Shown here one piece after another: positions 16,624-21,423 of a stretch of 27,405 nucleotides of DNA; the first letter of the stretch is position 1; each line of letters begins with the position of its first letter. Source of the stretch: a virus; the IMG/VR virus record IMGVR_UViG_3300006224_000034, positions 1 to 27,405 of that record, one strand, 5' to 3'. A program made the translations under genes and the position numbers. Under the pieces are notes generated by a model, which was not told the DNA's origin, ran no database searches, and saw nothing but the letters and a program-made list of their open reading frames with translations.

Positions 16624-17289
16624 TTAAGCAATACGGCTGAATGTATACGCCGTTGCACTGGAAAACATCAGTCTGAAACAACCTTGGCCAGTTACACCAT
16701 TGGGAACGGTTAATAGACCAGAACCACCAGCTTCTGCTGCGGCCAGTGCCGAAAGAATACCATTAACAGCAACTACCATAGTGACAGTATTGGCACCGGC
16801 AGTATTATCAATGTAGAGGTCAAAAATAGTGCCTTGAACTGCCCCTAATTCGGTTCCGAGAAGGGTTCCGGTGGGTAGGGTAAGCGCTGTGGCTGCTGCT
16901 GACGTAGAAGTGATATAGCCGGTCGCCACTTGTGCAGCAGTAAGCACTGCATCAGCATTAGCCGCTGTTGGTGTATGGGTATTAACTGGATTAGCAATCT
17001 TGGGAGTACCGGTTATTGTTGGCGATACTGAGGCAACAAGAGAGGTTCCTGTACCGGTCTGAGTACCACTAACCAGACCTTTTGAGGCATCGGTGAATAC
17101 TGGCAATGAGGCAGTAAGGGAAGATAAAATTGGTTTTGCGGTAAGTGTGACAACGCCCGTGAATGTTGATGTTGTATTAACAAGAAGGGTGGTGACGGTT
17201 AGGCCGGTCGGGAGTGTGACGTTGCCGGTGATATCTCCGACAAAGCCTGCTGCTGAATAGACGGGCCCCGAAAAATGTGATGCTGCCAT
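16624..17289 (-). CDS. Virion structural protein, first gene of the second virion unit
   Basis: A 221-residue protein beginning MAASHFSGPVYSAAGFVGDI, then TGNVTLPTGLTVTTLLVNTT. The N-terminus is typical of small phage surface proteins, and DLYIDNTAGANTVTMVVAVN with VTGQGCFRLMFSSATAYTFS ends it in a jelly-roll-like way. The ATG at 17289 has GGAG 8 bases upstream; a TTG six codons earlier has no ribosome-binding site. It is the first gene of the minus-strand unit, with a 5' hairpin directly before the ribosome-binding site and a candidate promoter about 90 bases upstream. The exact role is unknown. Confidence 0.78.
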   Translation of the reverse strand: MAASHFSGPVYSAAGFVGDITGNVTLPTGLTVTTLLVNTTSTFTGVVTLTAKPILSSLTASLPVFTDASKGLVSGTQTGTGTSLVASVSPTITGTPKIANPVNTHTPTAANADAVLTAAQVATGYITSTSAAATALTLPTGTLLGTELGAVQGTIFDLYIDNTAGANTVTMVVAVNGILSALAAAEAGGSGLLTVPNGVTGQGCFRLMFSSATAYTFSRIA

Positions 17290-17301
17290 GATGGCTACTC
17301 C

Positions 17302-17333
17302 ATACAAAGAGATTCGCCTTAGAGTCTTTGTAT
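17302..17333 (-). promoter_or_regulatory. 5' UTR hairpin before first gene of the virion unit
   Basis: Perfect 9-bp arms (17302-17310 and 17325-17333, ATACAAAGA / TCTTTGTAT) with a 14-base loop. On the minus transcript it ends right beside the GGAG ribosome-binding site. No U-run follows, so it is probably an mRNA-stabilising or translation-control stem. Confidence 0.6.
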
Positions 17334-17381
17334 AGTCTGCTGGAACAGTCGCTAAGGCTTAAAGTTTCCAGAATTTCCTTC

Positions 17382-17412
17382 ATTATATACTCCAAATTTT
17401 TATACCATTCAA
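17382..17412 (-). promoter_or_regulatory. Candidate minus-strand promoter
   Basis: TATAAT at 17387-17382 is a perfect -10 box. TTGAAT at 17412-17407 is a four-of-six -35 box at a slightly long 19-base spacing. It points toward the virion unit starting at 17289. The -35 lies inside the small dyad at 17402-17419. Confidence 0.45.
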
Positions 17413-17419: not shown

Positions 17420-17424
17420 TTTAT

Positions 17425-17452
17425 TTGACATACTTCCAATCTCCGCTATACT
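17425..17452 (+). promoter_or_regulatory. Sigma70-type promoter of the PEP-CTERM cassette
   Basis: TTGACA at 17425-17430 (perfect) and TATACT at 17447-17452 (five of six) at 16-base spacing. Transcription is expected to start near 17460. It reads into a structured leader and then the PEP-CTERM gene. This is the strongest promoter match seen in the window. Confidence 0.72.
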
Positions 17453-17459
17453 TCAAATC

Positions 17460-17563
17460 GTTATCTCTGTACCAGCGTGAACTGTTAAAGAAATAGCTTA
17501 AAACCTATTAAACTAAAGCCTCGTCCTCGACCGTGTTCACGCATAGTCTACGAGGCTTTTTTT
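17460..17563 (+). ncRNA. Candidate leader RNA or small RNA with pseudoknot
   Basis: From the predicted start near 17460 to the terminator end at 17563 is about 104 nt with no convincing gene. GCGTGAAC (17475-17482) is the exact reverse complement of GTTCACGC (17535-17542), which lies in the loop of the terminator hairpin, so an 8-bp pseudoknot or a competing fold is possible. A weak GCTT/AAGC pairing (17496-17499 with 17516-17519) would overlap the terminator's left arm. It could be a free small RNA or an attenuator for the PEP-CTERM gene. It does not match a riboswitch class I can name. Confidence 0.5.
17515..17563 (+). terminator. Intrinsic terminator/attenuator upstream of the PEP-CTERM gene
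   Basis: Perfect 10-bp stem AAAGCCTCGT / ACGAGGCTTT (17515-17524 with 17550-17559), 25-base loop, then seven T's (17557-17563). It lies between the promoter and the start codon at 17588, so full transcription of the gene requires read-through or a regulated alternative fold. Confidence 0.7.
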
Positions 17564-17587
17564 ATGTCTTATTTTTGAGGTAATTAA

Positions 17588-18334
17588 ATGAAACTATTAC
17601 GACCCGCTCTGTTAATCGGTTTACTACTTGCCAGTAGTGCCCAAGCCGCGCCTATCTCCTTCACCAATATTTTTAATGGCTCATTGTCGTCGTGGCAAAC
17701 GGTAGGCACCGTTGATGATAGTATTGCTGATGCTCCGAATGGCCCTGATACACAATTCACTTTATTGAATCTAACCGGTCTTGCCGCTACTGATGCCCAG
17801 TGGATTAATGTAACCATTCAGGAAGCTCATTCTGGCTTATCAGATGTTTTGTATAACGTGGTGTTTACCCCTAACGTAACCAGTGCGGCAAGCCCATTTT
17901 TTGCTACTAGCGGCTACACAAATGGCTTAAGCTCTATTGGCTATCAAGTGACCGCACTAAAGAATGAGTTTCTTGCCAGTGTCCGTTTAGATGTCAATGC
18001 AGCTGGGGCAACCGCTACTGAAAGTGATGTTACTACTCTATCTGATGTGTCGCTGGCTAACCCTGCTTTTCTGACATTAACCAGCTTGGGTGGTCAGCCT
18101 GACCCAATATCTCCCCCCGGCTCTCACATTAACTTCTCACCTCGCAAAACCGTTTTCGTAAATAATTCCTTTGATGCGAATGGCGGTCTGATCAATTCTG
18201 TAAGCAATCAGTTCGATGTTCATACTGTTCCTGAGCCAGCAATTCCCTTATCTTTGGGTCTTGGTTTAATTGGCTTGGGTTTTATGAAAAATAAGAGTAA
18301 GCTATCTGCTAACACTCAGGTGTCTCTCGCGTAA
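17588..18334 (+). CDS. Secreted PEP-CTERM sorting-signal protein (phage moron)
   Basis: A 248-residue plus-strand gene with GAGG 7 bases before its ATG. The N-terminus MKLLRPALLIGLLLASSAQA is a classic Sec signal peptide, cut near residue 20. The C-terminus has VPEP (214-217), then a hydrophobic span AIPLSLGLGLIGLGFM (218-233) and a basic KNKSK, the tripartite PEP-CTERM signal recognised by exosortase. An extra tail of about ten residues follows. The mature body, with many Asn, Thr and Ser, has no recognisable enzyme motif. In bacteria PEP-CTERM proteins are processed and exported with exopolysaccharide, as in floc-forming and biofilm species. No exosortase is in the window, so a host enzyme would be needed. 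Its own promoter, leader and terminator mark it as a moron. Confidence 0.85.
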   Translation: MKLLRPALLIGLLLASSAQAAPISFTNIFNGSLSSWQTVGTVDDSIADAPNGPDTQFTLLNLTGLAATDAQWINVTIQEAHSGLSDVLYNVVFTPNVTSAASPFFATSGYTNGLSSIGYQVTALKNEFLASVRLDVNAAGATATESDVTTLSDVSLANPAFLTLTSLGGQPDPISPPGSHINFSPRKTVFVNNSFDANGGLINSVSNQFDVHTVPEPAIPLSLGLGLIGLGFMKNKSKLSANTQVSLA

Positions 18335-18342
18335 TATCTTTC

Positions 18343-18392
18343 AGCCCAAACCATTATGAGCTTATCCTCGTAATGGTTTGGGCTTTTTTTTT
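18343..18392 (+). terminator. Strong intrinsic terminator after the PEP-CTERM gene
   Basis: Perfect 14-bp stem AGCCCAAACCATTA / TAATGGTTTGGGCT (18343-18356 with 18371-18384), extendable by a wobble and two more pairs, then nine T's (18384-18392). It closes the PEP-CTERM cassette nine bases after its stop codon. Confidence 0.93.
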
Positions 18393-18874: not shown

Positions 18875-20332
18875 TTATTTACTCCATATCCATTTCTGAC
18901 TGCCTACTCCGTGGATTTTTGACCATCCTGCTTCTGTACAGATTTCATTTTCTGTTTTAGTCGGGGCATAAAACTTGTTTAACTGATGTTTGGGTTCAGC
19001 CAGTTTATGCTTCTGAACAGAATATCTCGGTATGCGCTTAACCTCTCCTTTAGGTACCCACCAATAATCAGGCTCTGTTATGCTAGCTAATGTAAAACCA
19101 GTAGCTTCGTAAAGCTTTCCATCACCATAACGAAGGTCACAGTAACTGATTATCTCGTTTGGGTCTACCTCAGTCTTAAACTGCTTTAAAAGCCTTGAAA
19201 AACCTCCCTGAACCCGACCGGTAGAAGCATATCGGGTTACTTCCCATCTACCCTCTACTTTAGCTCCTGTCATTGCCCCAGACCTTGCCTTTCCAAAAGT
19301 AGCCACAGCCACTATGTTTTCTTCGTCTTTCAGGGCATAGCAGTAAGACGCAACACCAGCACCTTGTATGTGTGTGGCTACCAAGAAAGGACGCGCCTCA
19401 GACATAGGGATTTGGCTTAATTTCAGCTTTCTTGCTTGATACTGTGGGGCTTTACCAATAAAGGCTAACAACCGATTCTTAACAATGTCTTGCTTATCCA
19501 GCCACTCATCCTCAAATATCTGAACCAAACGAATCCCGGCTTTGTTGGCCGCTTCGTATTTTTCGCGGTGGTAGTTACTGTGAGTGCGAGGGGATGAGTG
19601 CCAGTATAGACCATGATATTCAATACCCATCTTAAATTCAGGAAGGTAAATATCGATTTCTTTTGGGGCTATGATTTGCCGGTTGCGCCGCTCAACTACA
19701 GTGTATTGGGCCAAGAAGTCTGCTATGGCTTCCTCATCCTGTGATTTCATATTCCCACATTTATTACAAGTTATTTGGCCAGATAAATGATTTACCGGCC
19801 TCTGCATATTGGTCCCATGCTCACAAGTTACAGCAACTGTTGGCATCTGCATATTACTCCACTCTACAGCTTCATAAGTAAACTTATCTGGATGTATTGC
19901 TTGTGCCCTTTCTTTAAATACCTCAAATGTTAGTTGCTTTGATTTCCGTATTTTAGAACCCTTGCATTTCGGGCAACCCTGCTTACCTCTAAAATGATTA
20001 TCTGGAGACTGAAAGAACTCTCCATGAACAGAACACCCAATACTTACTTTTAAGTCTTTACCAATATATTTAACTTTAGAGTAGTCATATAAATCTCCAT
20101 GAATAGATTTGAACCTATCTACCCAGTCTGCCCCTCGGCCAACACATTTAGAGCATCCAGACCCTCTACTTGTAAAGCTTGTGGGGACTATGAAAAATGA
20201 CCCATGCTCTCTACATATAACTTCCACTGGAACCTTTGCAGCTTTATATACCAACTTGGAATAATCATATTTCTTCCCATGAATAGCCAGAACTCTACTC
20301 ATGTAATCTTCTTGGGTTATTAATTTTGGCAT
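18875..20332 (-). CDS. Vsr/EDxHD-like homing endonuclease with three zinc modules
   Basis: A 485-residue protein. It has three repeated Cys/His modules: C40, H43, C60xxC63; C100, H103, C120xxC123; C170, H172, C189xxC192. The first two carry the KYDYSKLVY / LYDYSKVKY core. A nuclease domain follows (about 195-290) with KEIDIYLPEFKMGIEYHGLY, where E225, D227, E238, H240 and H245 fit the Vsr/EDxHD active-site pattern of phage homing endonucleases such as I-Bth0305I. The C-terminus (about 300-430), with ATFGKARSG, GRWEVTRYAS and ISYCDLRYGDGKLYEATGF, is a separate domain of unknown role often found behind such nucleases. The ribosome-binding site is AGGAG. It ends in a convergent junction. Confidence 0.85.
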   Translation of the reverse strand: MPKLITQEDYMSRVLAIHGKKYDYSKLVYKAAKVPVEVICREHGSFFIVPTSFTSRGSGCSKCVGRGADWVDRFKSIHGDLYDYSKVKYIGKDLKVSIGCSVHGEFFQSPDNHFRGKQGCPKCKGSKIRKSKQLTFEVFKERAQAIHPDKFTYEAVEWSNMQMPTVAVTCEHGTNMQRPVNHLSGQITCNKCGNMKSQDEEAIADFLAQYTVVERRNRQIIAPKEIDIYLPEFKMGIEYHGLYWHSSPRTHSNYHREKYEAANKAGIRLVQIFEDEWLDKQDIVKNRLLAFIGKAPQYQARKLKLSQIPMSEARPFLVATHIQGAGVASYCYALKDEENIVAVATFGKARSGAMTGAKVEGRWEVTRYASTGRVQGGFSRLLKQFKTEVDPNEIISYCDLRYGDGKLYEATGFTLASITEPDYWWVPKGEVKRIPRYSVQKHKLAEPKHQLNKFYAPTKTENEICTEAGWSKIHGVGSQKWIWSK

Positions 20333-20365: not shown

Positions 20366-20394
20366 ATTATATACCAAAGAGTTTATTTACGGAA
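20366..20394 (-). promoter_or_regulatory. Weak promoter candidate for the endonuclease
   Basis: TATAAT at 20371-20366 (minus strand) is a perfect -10 box about 35 bases before the endonuclease start. The -35 position (TTCCGT at 17-base spacing) is poor and falls in the most divergent repeat unit. Confidence 0.3.
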
Positions 20395-20450
20395 GGGTTT
20401 ATTTACAAAAGAGTTTATTTACAAAAGAGTTTATTTACAAAAGAGTTTAT
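20377..20450. repeat. Tandem 16-bp repeat, four copies plus a partial one
   Basis: Units of AAGAGTTTATTTACAA at 20377-20392, 20393-20408, 20409-20424 and 20425-20440, then ten bases of a fifth (20441-20450). The first ends GG in place of AA, and the second has GGG in place of GAG. The strict 16-bp spacing lies between the capsid terminator and the endonuclease start. It could be a set of protein-binding sites, an origin-like element or simple slippage. Confidence 0.85.
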
Positions 20451-20462
20451 TGTTTAAGGCAT

Positions 20463-20486
20463 AAAAAAGCCTCCCGAAGGAGGCTT
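20463..20486 (-). terminator. Intrinsic terminator after the major capsid gene
   Basis: On the minus strand AAGCCTCC-TTCG-GGAGGCTTTTTT: a GC-rich stem (20469-20474 with 20479-20484), UUCG loop, then six U's. It lies 26 bases after the capsid stop and ends the capsid transcript. Confidence 0.9.
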
Positions 20487-20511: not shown

Positions 20512-21423
20512 TCAGGCCCCGGGGCTGGAATACGCACCCAAACTGTCGCTGAAACCGAACGAATATCTTTCGCGCGCCTTATATCTGCTGTTCCCCGACT
20601 CAAAATCACCATCCATGCCGGTTGTTAACGGAGCCCGAACGAACATTTTAAGACCATTCGGAACGTCAGTAGTCAACATCCAAGCGTTGGTGTCAGTGAA
20701 AAAGTGGTTGATCTTGTAGCCTTCGGGGATTGACCCGTTGTTTACTATCGCATTTATGTCGTTGTCGGTCGTTCCAACACGAAGTTGGGTTTCCAGTAAA
20801 CGGGTAGCAACGAATTGTAAGGCAGGAGGAAGCACCAGTTTTTTCGGTTTAGCAGCGATTAAAAGTCCGCGTTCGTCTGTCCACGCTGCGATTTGAATCA
20901 CAGCAGCTTCCAGTGAGGTTTCGTTTAAATCAGCAGCCACAGCCGGGGTATTGGAGTTAAATCCACCACCAACCAGAGGATGAAGGGTAGAGAATAATGC
21001 CACGCCATCACCACCCGGATAAGCAGCGGAGAAGCCGTTATTGATAACAGCTGCGCCTTTTACTTGTTTGGTGTAGGCCATGGCACGCGCCAATGCTTTT
21101 GTGTAGCGAGCAGAGAGAGAATCATAAAGGTTATCTTCTATCGCTTCCTCGGTTAAAGCAAAACCGAGAGCAATTGTTTCGTGATTGTAGCGGGCTGTCC
21201 ATGCTTCCTGCGCGTTGTCATATTGAATGGCAGCGCCTTCATATTTGACGGGAGCGGCAGAAAAGCCTGACAGTTTTGTTTCTTCTTCAAAACTACGTTC
21301 GGAAGATTCAATTTCGTAAATCTCTTTATGCTCTTCGCCGTAACGAGCATATTCCAGACCAAACAGAGCGTTTAGACCCGGTAGTAGTTCTTTGAGAAGT
21401 TGTGAACGGGAAATAGCAGCCAT
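20512..21423 (-). CDS. Major capsid protein
   Basis: A 303-residue protein with the sequence pattern of major capsid proteins in podovirus-like marine and freshwater phages. It includes LNALFGLEYARYGEEHKEIY, EEETKLSGFSAAPVKYEGAA, AWTARYNHETIALGFALTEE, AIEDNLYDSLSARYTKALAR and AMAYTKQVKGAAVINNGFS. The later INAIVNNGSIPEGYKINHFF and FVRAPLTTGMDGDFESGNSR are also characteristic. An HK97-type fold is expected from this family. It has a strong ribosome-binding site (TAGGAG), is preceded by the 283-residue virion protein, and is the last gene before a strong terminator, as usual for a highly expressed capsid gene. Confidence 0.93.
   Translation of the reverse strand: MAAISRSQLLKELLPGLNALFGLEYARYGEEHKEIYEIESSERSFEEETKLSGFSAAPVKYEGAAIQYDNAQEAWTARYNHETIALGFALTEEAIEDNLYDSLSARYTKALARAMAYTKQVKGAAVINNGFSAAYPGGDGVALFSTLHPLVGGGFNSNTPAVAADLNETSLEAAVIQIAAWTDERGLLIAAKPKKLVLPPALQFVATRLLETQLRVGTTDNDINAIVNNGSIPEGYKINHFFTDTNAWMLTTDVPNGLKMFVRAPLTTGMDGDFESGNSRYKARERYSFGFSDSLGAYSSPGA

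Follow-up and report, generated by a model that had tools for sequence, protein, structure and literature searches.

Mu-gpT-DE (RF03012), an RNA that lies directly 3′ of a gpT-type capsid gene and directly 5′ of the next start codon, is the closest known kind to the leader described here. It has been reported to have covarying pairs that are absent from its database (Rfam) structure (PMC7657543). Two further systems resemble parts of the same locus. Phage 'moron' cassettes hold a gene that is independent of the late operon, has its own promoter and terminator and is missing from relatives, with deviating base composition as an additional criterion. Transcription attenuators, such as amino-acid leaders, place a promoter, a short leader and a terminator ahead of a gene, with a leader peptide and an antiterminator strand that sequesters one arm of the terminator.

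The locus lies in the window, the whole 27,405-nucleotide stretch of viral DNA analysed (IMG/VR record IMGVR_UViG_3300006224_000034), whose minus strand encodes a portal protein, a gpT-type major capsid protein and other head or virion proteins. Related capsid proteins occur in Synechococcus phage MinM2, Pelagibacter phages HTVC023P and HTVC027P, phage DSL-LC04 and Roseobacter phages CRP-901 and CRP-902. The major capsid gene is separated from the ATG of the next structural gene by a gap that contains an HNH homing endonuclease gene and a plus-strand cassette encoding a PEP-CTERM protein (Table 1). In our preferred reading, two transcription units are arranged back to back: an inserted plus-strand accessory cassette, of which 17460-17563 would form the promoter and an early, probably leaky terminator, and a minus-strand structural gene with its own leader. 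We assign this explanation as a whole a probability of roughly 0.6. The minus-strand structured leader is strongly supported and is a phage RNA new to Rfam whose three interleaved helices covary clearly, while the plus-strand element, which a sequence-only reading had singled out, is local and ordinary in kind.

Table 1. Features in and around the gap that follows the major capsid gene, in window coordinates.
Feature	Position	Strand	Details
Structural gene 3′ of leader	16624-17289	-	start ATG 17289; position corresponds to the 'cement protein' gene of DSL-LC04
Shine-Dalgarno site GGAG, adjoining P3	17298-17301	-	read from sequence; same arrangement in relatives
Double-pseudoknot leader	17301-17371	-	P1 17371-17366/17345-17340; P2 17358-17352/17322-17316; P3 17333-17325/17310-17302
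-10-like site TATAAT	17382-17387	-	10 nt 5′ of leader; read from sequence
Sigma-70-type cassette promoter	17425-17452	+	TTGACA 17425-17430, 16-nt spacer, TATACT 17447-17452; 11/12, shuffled windows score alike
Predicted terminated leader RNA, ~104 nt	17460-17563	+	prediction from sequence
8-mer GCGTGAAC	17475-17482	+	exact complement of GTTCACGC (17535-17542) inside the terminator loop; P ~0.003
Intrinsic terminator	17515-17563	+	10-bp stem, arms AAAGCCTCGT 17515-17524 and ACGAGGCTTT 17550-17559; 25-nt loop; U7 (T-run 17557-17563); absent from 20 shuffles
PEP-CTERM protein gene	17588-18334	+	248 aa; signal peptide and C-terminal PEP-CTERM segment
Terminator of PEP-CTERM gene	18343-18384	+	one of the window's two perfect stems
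HNH homing endonuclease gene	18875-20332	-	within the gap; homologue in locus L245
Capsid-gene terminator	20467-20486	-	3′ of the major capsid gene
Major capsid gene (gpT-type)	20512-21423	-

The leader lies about 90 bases from the flagged plus-strand stretch, on the opposite strand and just 5′ of the structural gene's start codon. It was found through a short blastn match in relatives that pointed to this position, after which the relatives were read side by side. Its strands follow the order P1, P2, P1′, P3, P2′, P3′, with P2 crossing both P1 and P3, and its conserved core reads ACUG..CCAGCAGAC..GA, the junction letters ACUG, CAGAC and GA being nearly invariant. On alignment A2, 91.5% of the cells of P1 and P2 are paired and 217 double changes occur, where shuffling gives a mean of 74; pairing drops to 29-50% in slid versions of the two helices. 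For P2, strands of the same sequence pair over 8.7 bp on average, compared with 4.9 bp when strands are swapped (61 sequences picked for differing P2 strands). Because the pattern scans of viral contigs had imposed P1, this helix was retested on 55 copies from loci selected independently of the motif's pairing, in nearly every case by similarity of their proteins; 49 of these carry the complement of their own 4-mer, as against 4.2% for other types. P3 was tested alignment-free, since the first MAFFT alignment had misplaced it between subgroups. Its own strands pair over a mean of 6.0 bp versus 4.1 bp when swapped, and pairing reaches at least 6 bp in 11 of 15 cases versus 11% of swaps; one subgroup is missing P3. 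All three helices are present in the window, which has an A-U pair in P1 where 59 of 59 other sequences have G-C. The window was among the 60 sequences used to build model R1, and its match to that model is therefore by construction.

Two pattern scans of viral contigs, combined with the earlier loci, bring the leader to at least 267 copies, at least 231 of them distinct. Among the matches listed, a capsid gene lies upstream in 241 of 267 copies, at a median distance of 106 nt, and an open frame lies 3′ of the leader in 264, with a similar N-terminus in 252. The corresponding distance in the window is about 3.2 kb because of the insertion. Carriers include Pelagibacter phage HTVC023P and lake phage DSL-LC04, and none of the 18 records searched holds more than one copy. 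In several relatives the terminator of the capsid gene stands just 5′ of the leader, and in a subset (44 of 231) a -10-like site, GTATNAT, stands 5′ of the leader at a constant spacing (-14/-15). Bacterial genomes contain 26 stretches with the leader motif; two that have a phage capsid gene nearby were accepted as real, and the remainder, with no such gene nearby, were not.

Some loci show further elements at this position. Directly 5′ of the leader, four of them (L065 7300-7365, L055, L062 and L064) carry a second conserved element, GTGGATGGC...GCCAT...GTCCAC, which is possibly a tandem RNA domain. Two others have possible variant leaders in the same place (L245 10360-10437 and L286 5470-5550), with a core CGACGG replacing ACUG...CAGAC and no match to model R1.

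Searched against Rfam over the window and its relatives, the leader has no match at the gathering score. The same place in CRP-902 is occupied by Mu-gpT-DE. The RF03012 model does not match the window's leader even at E 10, and the leader model does not match CRP-902; the leader is therefore not filed as a member of Mu-gpT-DE. The two RNAs share their position and, as read from alignments, a short similar stretch (CUGAC-CUAGC/CUGACAcUAGC), on the strength of which a common origin is possible. In contrast, the sizes and order of the leader's helices are unlike those of the Rfam structure, a comparison made with Rfam's version only; the original Mu-gpT-DE alignment could be broader.

P3′ abuts or overlaps the Shine-Dalgarno site in the window as in its relatives. 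As the conserved 5′ end with which the minus-strand structural gene would begin, the leader most likely controls initiation of that gene's translation, or shields a late message at its 5′ end. A wider interpretation, to which we give somewhat less than an even chance, is that the leader represents an undescribed and widespread phage class of double pseudoknots that times or balances a capsid-associated protein against the major capsid protein; Mu-gpT-DE would then be a narrow relative of that class. The nearly invariant junctions within so compact a double pseudoknot would also suit a self-cleaving ribozyme or a ligand-binding riboswitch in place of a translation or stability element, and the helix order resembles that of pistol ribozymes, which we treat as a lead only. 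However, the leader matches none of Rfam's ribozyme or riboswitch families, the pistol model included, and throughout the collected set it precedes one kind of capsid-region gene, not metabolic genes; a catalytic or ligand-binding role is improbable. The leader offers a defined RNA with which to study the setting of capsid protein ratios, or the stabilisation of late messages, in common aquatic phages, and it suggests that Mu-gpT-DE is one among several RNA forms at the post-capsid site.

On the plus strand, the sequence-only reading had described a strong promoter, a 10-bp terminator stem with a U-run and an upstream 8-mer exactly complementary to the terminator loop, and had proposed either an attenuator of the PEP-CTERM gene or a new phage small RNA. 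This interpretation is partly supported. The promoter exists and is the sole site in the window matching at least 11 of 12 positions, but shuffled windows yield 0-3 such sites; it is plausible from its position, not from its score. Transcription is predicted to start at about 17457-17460. The terminator is not a product of chance: among perfect stems of 10 bp or longer followed by T6, the window has just this one and that of the PEP-CTERM gene, and 20 shuffled windows contain none. A standard scan had overlooked it because of its loop limit of 8. The exact 8-mer match also holds, and is rarer than chance (P of a match of at least 8 = 0.0028 after shuffling, a post hoc figure); a plain terminator leaves it unexplained.

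The terminator ends 25 nt 5′ of the PEP-CTERM start codon. A promoter followed by a terminator at this distance from a gene implies either a short terminated RNA or control by read-through. Production of an RNA of about 100 nt is a prediction, although the underlying sequence elements are real. Such a promoter-to-terminator unit might produce an independent phage small RNA that folds into an H-type pseudoknot and acts in trans, the PEP-CTERM gene being merely its neighbour. Its predicted fold is stable (-26.5 kcal/mol, z -4.0, with the terminator contributing most), and the loops are long enough for the 8-mer pairing to form a pseudoknot. The stretch 17420-17590, on the other hand, has no relatives in phages, plasmids, some 280 fetched loci (the majority of which come from relatives) or a terminator-stem scan of viral contigs, and no Rfam small RNA reaches its cut-off, so that we regard a trans-acting RNA as unlikely. 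Twelve stretches returned by the stem scan were rejected as relatives, their loops being unrelated and their arrangement dissimilar. ACGCATAG is common to the plus-strand loop and the leader of L065, presumably by chance.

The proposed attenuator fares differently in its parts. A terminator does stand between promoter and gene, but no upstream segment competes for either of its arms (the longest complement is 3-4 nt) and no leader peptide fits, the sole candidate read from the sequence being GTG AAC TGT TAA. Classical attenuation is thus unsupported. An Rfam search, which the same reading had suggested for its leader, gave no match at the gathering score. No cis-element reached its cut-off, and the weak plus-strand hits to Phe_leader (21.5 bits) and isrJ (17.8 bits) fell far short of theirs. 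Because the partner of the 8-mer is the loop and neither arm, the pairing would decorate or delay the terminator without preventing it. Delay is what a true attenuator would exploit: the 8-bp helix would form first, and a signal would shift the balance towards read-through into the PEP-CTERM gene. Growing-prefix folding does predict this helix first (17542-17552), before the terminator fold prevails at 17558. However, with the helix occupying the loop both terminator arms stay free, and the terminator fold is much more stable, at a predicted -26.5 kcal/mol compared with -18.0 kcal/mol when the helix is forced. Together with the lack of a competing antiterminator strand and of a leader peptide, this leaves regulated attenuation a poor prospect.

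The inserted accessory cassette, our preferred reading, would span 17425-18384 and comprise its own promoter, the early intrinsic terminator, the PEP-CTERM gene and a second terminator, placed in the gap that follows the major capsid gene. Most transcripts would end at the early terminator, as an RNA of about 100 nt, and a fraction would read through into the PEP-CTERM gene, whose expression would stay low. The 8-mer pairing, if formed, would be a pseudoknot on the terminator, not an antiterminator. The gene is bracketed by terminators on both sides, and the promoter scan lists no second promoter-like site between the early terminator and the gene. Its product scores above the cut-off of TIGR02595 and slightly below that of PF07589. 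At the sensitivity used, searches of phages, viral contigs and bacterial genomes gave no relative of this protein.

The cassette is absent from relatives, in which the capsid gene and the next gene are usually about 100 nt apart and the flanks of the site are conserved. With its own promoter and terminator, as judged from sequence features, and a gene independent of the late operon, it resembles a moron; it differs in the extra terminator between promoter and gene and in encoding a PEP-CTERM protein. Its G+C content (43.1%) does not differ from that of the phage (44.7%), and composition therefore gives no support for a foreign origin. A full-text literature search found no paper combining PEP-CTERM, moron and phage. 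The terminator stem of the cassette (AAGCCTC/GAGGCTT) resembles that of the capsid gene (AAGCCTCC/GGAGGCTT), which may reflect shared design or recombination. A sub-threshold match to a Betaproteobacteria toxic small RNA at 18321-18391 on the plus strand (25.9 bits, cut-off 50), which covers the terminator of the PEP-CTERM gene, is probably a plain terminator hairpin.

Mobile endonucleases and accessory genes appear to have a hot spot in the gap after the capsid gene. In L245 this gap carries two small reversed genes besides an HNH gene; L002 has a GIY-YIG-like gene there and L230 a small HNH-like gene (both by reading the sequence), and in Caulobacter phage GB2A a homing endonuclease is annotated at this place. 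Genes inserted between a terminator and a promoter would leave both flanking units intact, and extra genes may therefore collect there. In the window, 5.3 copies of a 16-base repeat (TTATTTACAAAAGAGT) occupy 20367-20451, flanked by the capsid terminator and the HNH gene. In L230, an abiF RNA (RF03085, 45.5 bits, cut-off 37) at 1798-1835 lies between the capsid gene and the leader, adjoining the small HNH-like gene.
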